Origin: Fimbriimonadaceae bacterium | GTDB taxonomy: Bacteria > Armatimonadota > Fimbriimonadia > Fimbriimonadales > Fimbriimonadaceae | NCBI GenBank assembly: GCA_020847855.1 | Contig: JADLBH010000015.1 | Span: forward strand, 62,001-126,000 | Direction: 5' to 3' | DNA length: 64,000 bases | In this document: positions 8,301 through 38,125 of the stretch, in pieces | How positions within the stretch are numbered: the stretch's first letter is position 1 | Layout: every line of letters starts with the position of its first letter | Notes under the pieces: model-generated | Database searches by the model: none | Seen by the model: the letters and a program-made list of their open reading frames with translations, nothing else | Told to the model about the DNA's origin: nothing | Made by a program: the position numbers and the translations under genes

Positions 8301-8939
8301 ATGCGTCTAAATCCAGTAGGCAAGATGCCGAGGTACGAAACGATGAATGCAATCCTCTTGATGATCGCTCTCGCAGGGTGCGGGCAGGGCAATGCCGCGA
8401 CCGGAACCGCCCAGACGGACAAGCCGCGAGCCGACACCGGGCAGACGAGCTTGCAGGACTCGGGAGGTCAGGCAGGAGGTCAAACGACCGGCACCCAACA
8501 GCAGCCCAAGAACCAGCACCGAAAGATCGAGTACCGGTCATTTCAACTCGACGACCTGGAAGTGGCGGACGTCAAGTTCGACGAGACCGTGATCAAGATG
8601 TGGGTGATGGACACCGACGCCAAGCGGGCGGAAGGGATGATGTTCCTCCAAGACGGAGACTTCAAGCCTGAGGAGGGGATGATCTTCGTGTTCAAGGTCG
8701 CCCAGCCGCTCTCCTTCTGGATGAGGAACACCCTCGTGCCGCTCGATATCGCCTATTGTGACGCCAAAGGGGTCGTCTTGAACACCTACTCGATGCGGGC
8801 GCTCGATGAGACCAGCGACTACTCGAGCAAGGGCAAGGCGATGTACGCCATCGAGCTCAAGGCGGGCACGATCAAGAAGCTAGAGATCGCAGCAGGCGAC
8901 AAGTTCGAGATTCCAGAGACCGTAGTCGCCAAAGACTAA
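8301..8939 (+). CDS. DUF192-domain lipoprotein
   Basis: From the ATG at the start of this feature, preceded by a GGGGG ribosome site, the protein has 212 residues. A signal sequence ends in the lipobox LMIALAGC near residue 26. A Gly/Gln/Thr-rich linker follows, then a DUF192 domain at about 85-205 with the conserved MMFLQDG and FWMRNTLVPLDIAYCD core. The domain's function is unknown; it is widespread as an exported single-domain protein. A downstream ATG at 8343 would leave no positively charged signal N-region, so the longer start is preferred. It follows leuD by 10 bases. Confidence 0.85.
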   Translation: MRLNPVGKMPRYETMNAILLMIALAGCGQGNAATGTAQTDKPRADTGQTSLQDSGGQAGGQTTGTQQQPKNQHRKIEYRSFQLDDLEVADVKFDETVIKMWVMDTDAKRAEGMMFLQDGDFKPEEGMIFVFKVAQPLSFWMRNTLVPLDIAYCDAKGVVLNTYSMRALDETSDYSSKGKAMYAIELKAGTIKKLEIAAGDKFEIPETVVAKD

Positions 8940-35089: not shown

Positions 35090-35226
35090 AGCGGCGGCCT
35101 CACGAGGACCTAGCACTGCACGATGGACGCCCGCCAGAGCGCCCCGCCGCCCGGGCCGGACGACGGTTCCCCGGCGCGAGCGAGAGCCTCGCCCGTGCCA
35201 CGCCTGACGAAGTCCGGTGCGTCCAT
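35086..35226 (-). pseudogene. C-terminal remnant of an A-type gene (duplication scar)
   Basis: Reading the minus strand from an ATG gives RRGTGEALARAG, SGPGGGALWRASI, then an in-frame TAG, VLVRPPL and TGA. This parallels the end of gene A upstream: KPGTGEVLARAG, ASGPGGTALWRASF, VLVLP and TGA. As in the A-B junction, the TGA overlaps the GTG start of the next PEP-CTERM gene. About 47 codons of an A-type gene therefore survive between copies B and C. Confidence 0.75.
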
Positions 35227-35234
35227 GGCTCACG

Positions 35235-36278
35235 TCAGCGTCCGCGCCTCCGCCGCGCGAGGGCGGCCAGGCCCAGGGCGAGGGCGGCGAGCATCCCTGG
35301 CTCGGGGACGGGGTTGAGGACCACGTTGCGGAGCTGGCCCGAGGGCAGATAGGCGTAGGCGAGGATCTGTCCCAGGTTGTTGACGTCGCCACCGGCGGTG
35401 ACCCGGTAGCCGCCGTAGCCTGGGGCCAAGAGGTCGTCGAGGAGGCGCATCTGCCCGTCCGGTTCCCAGAGCACGCCTCGGAGCCGGGTACCGTCGCTTG
35501 CCTCGCCGACCAGCAAGCCTACGTCGTTCACTCCGTACACGTACGAGGTGTGCGTCGGGGCGATCGGGCTGATCCGCTTGCGCATCCCGTTCTGCTCGTC
35601 CCAGACAAAGCCCTGGGTAGCCCCCCATCCGGTGGAAGACCCGACCACGATCGAGGTGTTGGAAATGTCGGCCGTGCCATACTGCCAGTCCGTCCCTAGC
35701 GTCCCCATCGCCACCGGCGTGAGGTCGGGGCGCCAGAAGACGGCGTCTTCGCGGTTCAGCCCGCTGTTCATGCTCCGGCCTGCCGCCTCGCCCTTCTCGT
35801 TCACCTGGCTCGCCTCTACGGTGTCGCCGGGTCGCAGGGCAGGGAGCCGCTCGGGGCCCGCGCCTTCGGACCAGCGGAAGCTCCGCTCGCCAGGCTGGCC
35901 CGAGTACTCTCCGACCACGTAGCCGGAGTCCGAGGCGTCGTACAGCTCCGTGAGCTCGAGGCCGGGGATCGGCACCGTCCCCCGGTGCCGATCCCAAACG
36001 TACCCGGCCCGTCCCCCCGTGCCGAAGGCGTAGCCCGCGACGATGCCTCCGTCGCTCGCCCCCTTGACGAACGTCTGCGGCATGCCTGGCGGCAATTGAA
36101 TCCTCTGGACGCCTAGATCCGGGTGCCAGACCTCGCCCTCAAAGCCTGTGGCCAGCCCGGTGTCCGAGATCGCTTGACCGCTGAAGGTGGTCGAGGGGAT
36201 CACCGTCACCGTGTACTGGCGCTGGGCCGAGGCCAGGGCGGCGGCGCAGAGCGCCGCCGCGACCATCGTCAGCCTCAC
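35235..36278 (-). CDS. exported HAF-type repeat PEP-CTERM protein (cassette copy B)
   Basis: This 347-residue protein has a GTG start overlapping gene A's stop (GTGA). A signal peptide (LTMVAAALCAAALASAQ) precedes a string of HAF-type repeats (AGYVWDRHRG, AVFWRPDLTPVAMGTLG, QGFVWDEQNG, GVLWEPDGQMRLLDDLL). The C-terminus is a full PEP-CTERM-like sorting signal: VPEPG, then the hydrophobic MLAALALGLAALA, then RRRRGR. Proteins with this tail are thought to be processed by an exosortase-type enzyme. It may be displayed on the cell surface. Confidence 0.82.
   Translation of the reverse strand: MRLTMVAAALCAAALASAQRQYTVTVIPSTTFSGQAISDTGLATGFEGEVWHPDLGVQRIQLPPGMPQTFVKGASDGGIVAGYAFGTGGRAGYVWDRHRGTVPIPGLELTELYDASDSGYVVGEYSGQPGERSFRWSEGAGPERLPALRPGDTVEASQVNEKGEAAGRSMNSGLNREDAVFWRPDLTPVAMGTLGTDWQYGTADISNTSIVVGSSTGWGATQGFVWDEQNGMRKRISPIAPTHTSYVYGVNDVGLLVGEASDGTRLRGVLWEPDGQMRLLDDLLAPGYGGYRVTAGGDVNNLGQILAYAYLPSGQLRNVVLNPVPEPGMLAALALGLAALARRRRGR
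35257..35288. repeat. 11-bp direct repeat pair, 21 bp apart, in PEP-CTERM coding region
   Basis: GCGAGGGCGGC occurs at 35257-35267 and 35278-35288 on the plus strand, inside the hydrophobic part of gene B's sorting signal. In gene C only one copy is left and exactly the 21 intervening bases are missing. This is the expected product of slipped-strand deletion between the repeats. Confidence 0.8.
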
Positions 36279-37777
36279 GGCAGCACCAGAACCCGGACGG
36301 ATTCGAACGATGCCCGCCAGAGGGCAGTTCCGCCCGGGCCCGAGGCCCGAACCCCCGCCCGGGCGAGCACTTCGCCCGTCCCTGGCTTGACGTAGGACGA
36401 CACACCGGTGGAAACAGTCCGCACGATCGTCCGCATGTGGACGTCGAGGTTCTGCGCCGTGCCGAGCGTGTCCCACAGCAGCGTCGTCCAGTTGAACATC
36501 TGGACCTCGACCGTGAACGCCCCTGCATGCTCGCGCCTTGCCGTCGCCCGCACTGCAATCTTGGCAGGCACCGCAGCCAAGAACTCTTGGGCCTGCACGA
36601 GGACACGGGGGAGAAGCGGGTTTGGCACCGCGCCGCGCTCGACCGAGTAGTACCGCCCGTCCATGAGCTTCATGTCCGTCGTAGCTCCGCCTACTCCGGC
36701 GCCGTAAACGAGCGAGTGCGTCGGTGAAGCGCTGCCCAAGGCCCAATCGGAGCCACCGGCCATCCAAAGGTCGGTGCTCGGCGGATCCGAGATCACGATG
36801 TGCCCGCCGGCCACGAACTCGCGCTGGATGCCGGTCAGCGAGATGCCGGTGACCGAGGAGTCTGCGTCCGGATCCAGGTACGACCACAGGTCGCTCGCCG
36901 CGCCGTCGTTGGCGGCGGCGGGGTCGGGAGAGCCGGTCCATACGTAGGGGAACGGCGAGTCCCTGGCGAAGGTGACGACAGGCCGCGACGTCGAGTAGGC
37001 GCGGTTGGTCGCCTGGCGGGGCTCGCCGAAGGCTGTGCCGACCCAGCGCACCCGTCCGTCCGGGTCGCCTGTGTAGCCGAGCGACCAGACGAACGCCTCG
37101 CCGGGAATCGGGAGGTCGGAAGCCGTCGTGGGCAGCATCCAGTCCACCGCGTAGGGGGAGTTGGGATCGCCCGCGACCGTGTCGGTCACCGCGACGACGT
37201 AGCTCGCGCGGTCCGATCGCCTGTCCCAGCCTTCGGCGTTGCTAGCGGTCTTGATGACTTGGTAGAGGCCCTGGGCGTCCTTCTGCCAGACGACCGCGAC
37301 CGAGCCGGGCGCGCCGATCACCCAGCCGCCGACTAGCCCGTCCTTGTTGACGGCCCGTGCCCCGCTGCCCGCCCGTCCTGCCAAGTCGAAGGAGAAGTTC
37401 GTCGAAGGTACGGACCGATCATAGATGAACGCGCGGAGCTGGCCGCCGGTTGTCAGCTTGTACGACCCGACGGCGTTGTCCTCCTCGTCCACGTCCCAGA
37501 ACGTGCCGGAAGTGTACGTCCCCGTCTGGTCGGCCAAGACGGCGAACGTGCTTGCGTCCGGCCAGTAGCAGGGGTAGGGCCGGCCGAGGTGGTCCGGGGC
37601 GTCGGACTCGCCCACGAACACCCCGGCGAAGTTGCCGGCCTTGCTGGTTGAGTCCCGGTCCGCGCCGCTGGTGTCGGGAACAGGCAACAGGGACGTGCCC
37701 CCCGTCGCGCTCCCCGACCAAAAGGCGGCTCGGTAGAACGGCGGGTCATTGGCGAGGGCTACCCCCCCCCCCCGCAA
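36275..37777 (-). CDS. exported repeat protein, 5' end frameshifted at a C12 tract (cassette gene A)
   Basis: The open frame encodes 500 residues from a TTG, but it lacks a signal peptide. Its mature part has HAF-like units (AFIYD, GTFWDVDEEDNAVG, VNKDGLVGGWVI, AVVWQKDAQG) and a C-terminal beta-rich domain ending WRASFESVRVLVLP. It overlaps gene B by four bases. The missing signal peptide is encoded just upstream in another frame (37774-37830) and would join this frame if the homopolymer had 13 or 10 bases instead of 12. It may be phase-variable, a pseudogene or an assembly error. Confidence 0.75.
   Translation of the reverse strand: MRGGGVALANDPPFYRAAFWSGSATGGTSLLPVPDTSGADRDSTSKAGNFAGVFVGESDAPDHLGRPYPCYWPDASTFAVLADQTGTYTSGTFWDVDEEDNAVGSYKLTTGGQLRAFIYDRSVPSTNFSFDLAGRAGSGARAVNKDGLVGGWVIGAPGSVAVVWQKDAQGLYQVIKTASNAEGWDRRSDRASYVVAVTDTVAGDPNSPYAVDWMLPTTASDLPIPGEAFVWSLGYTGDPDGRVRWVGTAFGEPRQATNRAYSTSRPVVTFARDSPFPYVWTGSPDPAAANDGAASDLWSYLDPDADSSVTGISLTGIQREFVAGGHIVISDPPSTDLWMAGGSDWALGSASPTHSLVYGAGVGGATTDMKLMDGRYYSVERGAVPNPLLPRVLVQAQEFLAAVPAKIAVRATARREHAGAFTVEVQMFNWTTLLWDTLGTAQNLDVHMRTIVRTVSTGVSSYVKPGTGEVLARAGVRASGPGGTALWRASFESVRVLVLP
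37762..37773. repeat. 12-base C/G homopolymer in the signal-peptide coding region
   Basis: Twelve consecutive C (G on the coding strand) lie between the codons for the signal peptide and those for the mature protein of gene A. Changing the tract by +1 or -2 restores one frame through both parts. It is the longest G/C homopolymer I noticed in the window. Confidence 0.9.
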
Positions 37778-37830
37778 ATTGACGAGAGCGCGAGCCCGAG
37801 GGCAGCGCGGCGGATGTTTGTTCTCTTCGT
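37774..37830 (-). other. out-of-frame signal peptide of gene A with ACG in start position
   Basis: The minus strand reads ACG-AAG-AGA-ACA-AAC-ATC-CGC and translates as (M)KRTNIRRAALGLALSSICG, a textbook signal peptide. GGAGGA at 37837-37842 is spaced six bases before the ACG, exactly where an ATG is expected. The true start is thus either ACG or an ATG altered by mutation or sequencing error. Confidence 0.65.
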
Positions 37831-38125
37831 CGGGATTCCTCCATGCCGAGTGTAGTCTCCACCGTGCCTTCAGAAGGAGTGCGGCAATTCAATCCTCGTA
37901 GCATTACCGGGTAGAGAGGCGACCGGGGCGCGCTCGCCTGCGGAGCCGACCAAACCCCGCGGTTCGCCGTAGGCCATGGCCCGAGCCGCCCAGAGTGGCC
38001 AGGTATCCTGCCTTCCCGGCCCTCGGGCCGAGAACACACGGTCGTGGACGCCGCTGGGTCCGCCCCTGGGGGGTGGTCAGGTGGGCTCTCAGCCACGGCC
38101 GGAGGAAACAACCCAGGAAACAACT
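37831..38125. other. divergent intergenic region between gene A and rpsB
   Basis: This stretch of about 295 bases should contain the promoters of the cassette and of rpsB-tsf. On the minus strand a TACACT (37849-37854) lies just before the GGAGGA of gene A and may be its -10. On the plus strand I find no convincing promoter. An AGGAAA ribosome site precedes rpsB. The rpsB leader may be structured, but I could not identify a known leader motif. Confidence 0.4.

Follow-up and report, generated by a model that had tools for sequence, protein, structure and literature searches.

A run of 12 guanines separates a signal peptide from the mature part of a putative exported protein in the 64,000-nucleotide stretch of Fimbriimonadaceae DNA analysed here (the window). 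We put at roughly 0.5 the probability that this tract is a device for phase variation of exported proteins by slippage, similar to that of Neisseria pilC, and that the window gene is doubly OFF, as judged from sequence and its comparison across related genomes. The features on which this reading rests are as follows, with paralog coordinates given on contig C15, which contains the window, or on locus L021.

37837–37842, minus strand: Shine-Dalgarno-like GGAGGA
37825–37827, minus strand: AAG where the paralog has its ATG start codon (differing base 37826)
37774–37827, minus strand: codes for the signal peptide, (AAG)RTNIRRAALGLALSSIC, read in the frame that the ribosome-binding site dictates
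37762–37773, minus strand: G12 tract (C12 on the forward strand) between signal peptide and mature part, which the assembled length leaves in different frames
36275–37761, minus strand: mature-protein frame 3′ of the tract, VALANDPPFYRAAFW...VRVLVLP, intact, no family match
37740–37847, minus strand: 108-bp block common to the window gene and its paralog, 107/108 identical, same tract length
35235–36290, minus strand: gene downstream of the window gene, for an exported repeat protein ending in a PEP-CTERM tail; weak DUF3466
35095–35235, minus strand: remnant of the C-terminus of an additional window-gene copy, interrupted by stop codons TGA and TAG
C15:56032–57540: full-length homolog (paralog, L021), 42 kb from the window gene
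L021:7699–7710: G12 tract of the paralog

Anatomy of the window gene

Consistent with the original prediction, the assembly has exactly 12 C at 37762–37773 and a GGAGGA on the minus strand at 37837–37842. The signal-peptide-like RTNIRRAALGLALSSIC was also recovered as described, with the tract then giving GGGG and a TAG stop. The mature part GGGVALANDPPFYRAAFW is read in the next frame, such that 13 or 10 G would fuse signal peptide and body. The proposed ACG start (37828–37830) is one codon early: the L021 paralog carries ATG at the next codon, which places the initiation codon at 37825–37827, where the window has AAG, and the base that differs from the paralog is 37826 rather than 37829. No ATG, GTG, TTG or CTG is available to start the window copy in its signal-peptide frame, and a search upstream for a start codon in the mature frame found none. 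A TTG at 37775–37777 was considered as the true start and rejected, having neither a ribosome-binding site nor a signal peptide. Given the window's codon usage, four consecutive glycines would all be encoded by GGG with a probability of 0.5%.

Past the G12 tract the body is open for 494 codons without a stop, down to 36275, and any loss of the gene would therefore be recent or incomplete. We infer that the protein is exported because a signal peptide is present. Pfam and NCBIfam searches of the gene body gave no match above curated cut-offs, relatives of the protein sought in genome-contig and viral-contig collections were not found, and structure prediction run without an alignment was useless (pLDDT 31). 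The 3′ end of the body meets the start of the downstream exported gene (35235–36290), a probable operon partner since the paralog locus repeats this gene order, the paralog also preceding an exported repeat gene. Pfam and NCBIfam place PEP-CTERM in the downstream gene only, not in the window gene body. The remnant at 35095–35235 suggests that the gene pair was tandemly duplicated and then lost; it sits between two exported PEP-CTERM/HAF-like genes.

The paralog and its shared leader

The paralog and window bodies are 39% identical by alignment (35% by tblastn), and their DNA is not alignable outside the 108-bp block, which comprises the ribosome-binding site, signal peptide, G12 and eight codons past the tract. 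The sole mismatch in this block falls in the start codon, which reads ATG in the paralog and AAG in the window. Identical leaders on strongly diverged bodies imply that the leader was copied recently, and gene conversion, the simplest route, is most likely what made the two identical. The paralog has an intact start codon and body, yet its G12 is out of frame, like that of the window copy. The equal tract length of 12 in the two copies counts against slippage, as does a homolog of the window gene in genome G007 (L002, about 1230–1390), which is without a homopolymer tract. The leader of this homolog is repetitive (SPVASRQ repeats) and has no clear start codon.

Among known systems, pilC1 and pilC2 of Neisseria have homo-guanine tracts in the signal-peptide region that turn the genes on or off by frameshift, according to a passage in PMC5354566 citing Jonsson 1991. 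Like pilC, the window gene encodes a protein, exported by inference, whose signal peptide carries a G tract of comparable length, and it is one of two homologous copies whose frame is set by tract length. Unlike pilC, the protein and phylum here are unrelated, switching is a prediction, the leaders are identical on bodies only 35–39% identical, and the window copy has no start codon. Comparison with a phase-variable gene of the pilC type finds a G/C tract (G12) of no fewer than 9 bases near the 5′ end of the reading frame, a frame relation between start and body that depends on tract length (12 leads to TAG), and an intact gene including its start codon in the L021 paralog but not in the window (AAG). 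Poly-G/C contingency genes, collectively phasomes, have been described in Neisseria and Campylobacter (PMC5953494, PMC6321876). The tract here exceeds the phasome cut-off of at least 9 G/C (PMC5953494) and likewise lies near the 5′ end of a reading frame; in contrast to those host-adapted genera with measured variation, the genes here encode uncharacterised exported proteins of Armatimonadota, and their variation is putative. The anatomy of the window gene matches translational phase variation by slippage, with pilC as its closest counterpart.

In such a mechanism the tract would act as a slippage-prone contingency sequence ending the signal peptide, like the homo-G tract of pilC, and gain or loss of a G would move the exported body into or out of the signal-peptide frame. 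The model presumes slippage in cells, reversible expression and a benefit, as well as gene conversion as the cause of the identical leaders and a surface role for the proteins. As assembled, the window copy would be OFF at G12, with its start codon also lost (AAG), so that a change in the tract alone could not express it. The set would then consist of two copies, of which the paralog keeps ATG and the same G12 leader and the window copy is, at present, locked or silent. The latter may be either a silent copy, revivable by conversion with the paralog, or an early pseudogene.

Long tracts in the host genome and its relatives

By ribosomal protein S2, the named assemblies closest to the host genome (2.53 Mb, 41 contigs) belong to Fimbriimonadaceae and other Armatimonadota. 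The host genome has nine G/C tracts of at least 10, making one G12 unremarkable by number. Only four tracts exceed 10, three of which lie exactly at a signal-peptide end (window, paralog and L023:8695), the fourth being 22 bp past an ATG. With the paralog pair counted once, two of three fall at signal-peptide ends, where the background rate is 1.6% (P~0.0008). The third case (L023:8695 = C10:104695) is a G13 that follows MRPLTTLARAAAVLASVC, whose frame its body does not share. An apparent duplication of this tract region was rejected, being really a partial copy of a glcF-like gene start that is without the tract (L023:6766–6865 and 8833–8932, 82% identical); five G/C tracts of at least 9 occur within the 4-kb stretch holding this partial duplicate. 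Elsewhere in the genome, a G10 lies inside a YD/RHS-like repeat gene whose coding frame differs before and after it (L022:8472–8481; G000:C10:68472), and L051:2113–2121 (G000:C19) is the sole frame-shifting G9 that has strong coding signal before as well as after it.

Tracts of at least 10 were also collected from some 30 further genomes of this family, with junctions read and their list curated by eye, and signal peptides called by simple rules and by eye rather than by a trained predictor. Signal-peptide-end G/C tracts of at least 10 were found in several other Fimbriimonadaceae genera, with varied lengths and phases (genome in brackets where given, followed by tract):

Out of frame: L064, G12; L066, C13; L190 (G010), G10; L192 (G079), G11; L205 (G001), C10; L246 (G022), C10; L257 (G087), G10; probably L261 (G087), C10; L323 (G056), G12; L344 (G102), G11
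In frame: L199 (G079), G13; L093 (G087), G12; L254 with tandem copy L304 (G086), L254 G10; L218/L219 (G011/G080), C11/C10

L344 is a probable case from another family of the order, in which the tract precedes a hydrophobic stretch. The body of L064, from another genus and a single-contig genome, is homologous to that of the window gene. Across homologs, tract lengths are 12/12 in the window gene and its paralog, C11/C10 in the orthologs L218/L219 (each in frame, their 96% identical bodies differing by a net one codon) and G12/G10 in L093/L254, which are mutually homologous with differing signal peptides. L093 and L257 form a second pair with nearly the same leader (96%). Recurrence of a tract in the signal peptide with different lengths and phases supports phase variation as a device, the part of the originally proposed phase-variable surface protein that has been strengthened; as an example of it, the window copy has been weakened by its missing start codon. 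The recurrence in related genera suggests that exported proteins are switched on and off via run length. The long tracts of the relatives are, overall, mostly intergenic or at gene or contig ends.

A loose rule allowing three start codons placed 18 of 154 tracts at signal-peptide ends versus 11.4 expected at random positions, a weak result, and was dropped for this high background in favour of a stricter one. This demanded an upstream ATG, an uncharged hydrophobic stretch preceded by no acidic residue and ending at most 6 residues from the tract, and an open frame of at least 60 codons downstream. It matched 11 of 142 tracts of at least 10 and 19 of 1131 tracts of 5–9, a roughly fivefold higher rate for the long tracts (Fisher P=0.0002); none of the 48 tracts of 8–9 matched (P=0.07 for at least 10 versus 8–9 alone), and omitting the loci behind the first examples left 7 of 97 versus 1.44 expected at random positions (P=0.0007), all of these P-values being optimistic because the stricter rule was written after seeing the loose rule's list from the same loci. 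One mechanical match of the stricter rule is doubtful (L227). A pattern ATGA-N36-66-G10, about five times commoner than its reversed control, was discarded as evidence because ATGA and AGTA differ in frequency.

Alternative explanations and wider occurrence

Ordinary decay would make the window gene a young pseudogene that has lost its start and frame, long G/C runs drifting neutrally where signal peptides tolerate glycine, proline and length change. The loss of both start codon and frame, the further copy already reduced to a remnant at 35095–35235, and genome-wide tract counts that are not in excess all favour decay, the last also counting against slippage. We nevertheless consider it unlikely given the intact 494-codon body, the intact start and body of the paralog, enrichment seen at tracts of at least 10 and not at 5–9, and recurrence of the anatomy across several genera with both G and C.

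An assembly or base-calling error, with a true length of 13 or 10, a gene constitutively in frame and perhaps an erroneous AAG as well, has in its favour that homopolymers of at least 10 are hard to call and that junction tracts are mostly out of frame. In-frame junctions make up about 4 of the 16 curated ones when related copies are collapsed, a share close to the one third that random phase predicts; set beside the in-gene G9 tracts described next, this counts in favour of slippage. Against an error, 13 of 14 G9 tracts flanked by coding sequence within genes of the same assembly preserve the frame, the anatomy is found across many different assemblies, of which one is a single-contig genome and several have the junction in frame, and the window copy and paralog would need the identical error. 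We regard this explanation as rather improbable. Slippage of RNA polymerase or the ribosome on a fixed G12, yielding some in-frame product, would accord with the equal tract length of both copies and with the general tendency of long homopolymers to induce transcript slippage, but is very improbable as the window copy has no start codon from which anything could be translated, and lengths and phases differ among the other genes.

Extending phase variation by tract slippage to the whole order is more tentative. Fimbriimonadales might possess order-wide contingency genes for unrelated secreted or surface proteins, in which G/C tracts at signal-peptide ends switch export and tract-bearing leaders are copied between paralogs, reshuffling state and body; we hold this to be possible, though somewhat doubtful. 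Most of what is known of slippage phase variation comes from host-adapted bacteria, whereas the Armatimonadota are a mostly environmental, little-cultured phylum. Recurrent signal-peptide-end tracts would here point to selection for variable exteriors where no vertebrate immune system is involved, with phage, predators or changing surfaces as candidate forces. A literature search for Armatimonadetes and phase variation, with most subscription journals outside its coverage, found no report.

Two further observations concern tracts in related genomes. In L308:686–695 (G080:C183) a G10 lies two bases 5′ of an ATG and immediately precedes an exported-type gene, where tract length could possibly control translation start. 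Genome G039, from another family of the order, has three near-identical leaders, ATGAAGCGAAGTA...GCGGGGGGGGGG, at C23:169425, C26:6178 and C48:4905, a further set of shared tract-bearing leaders.
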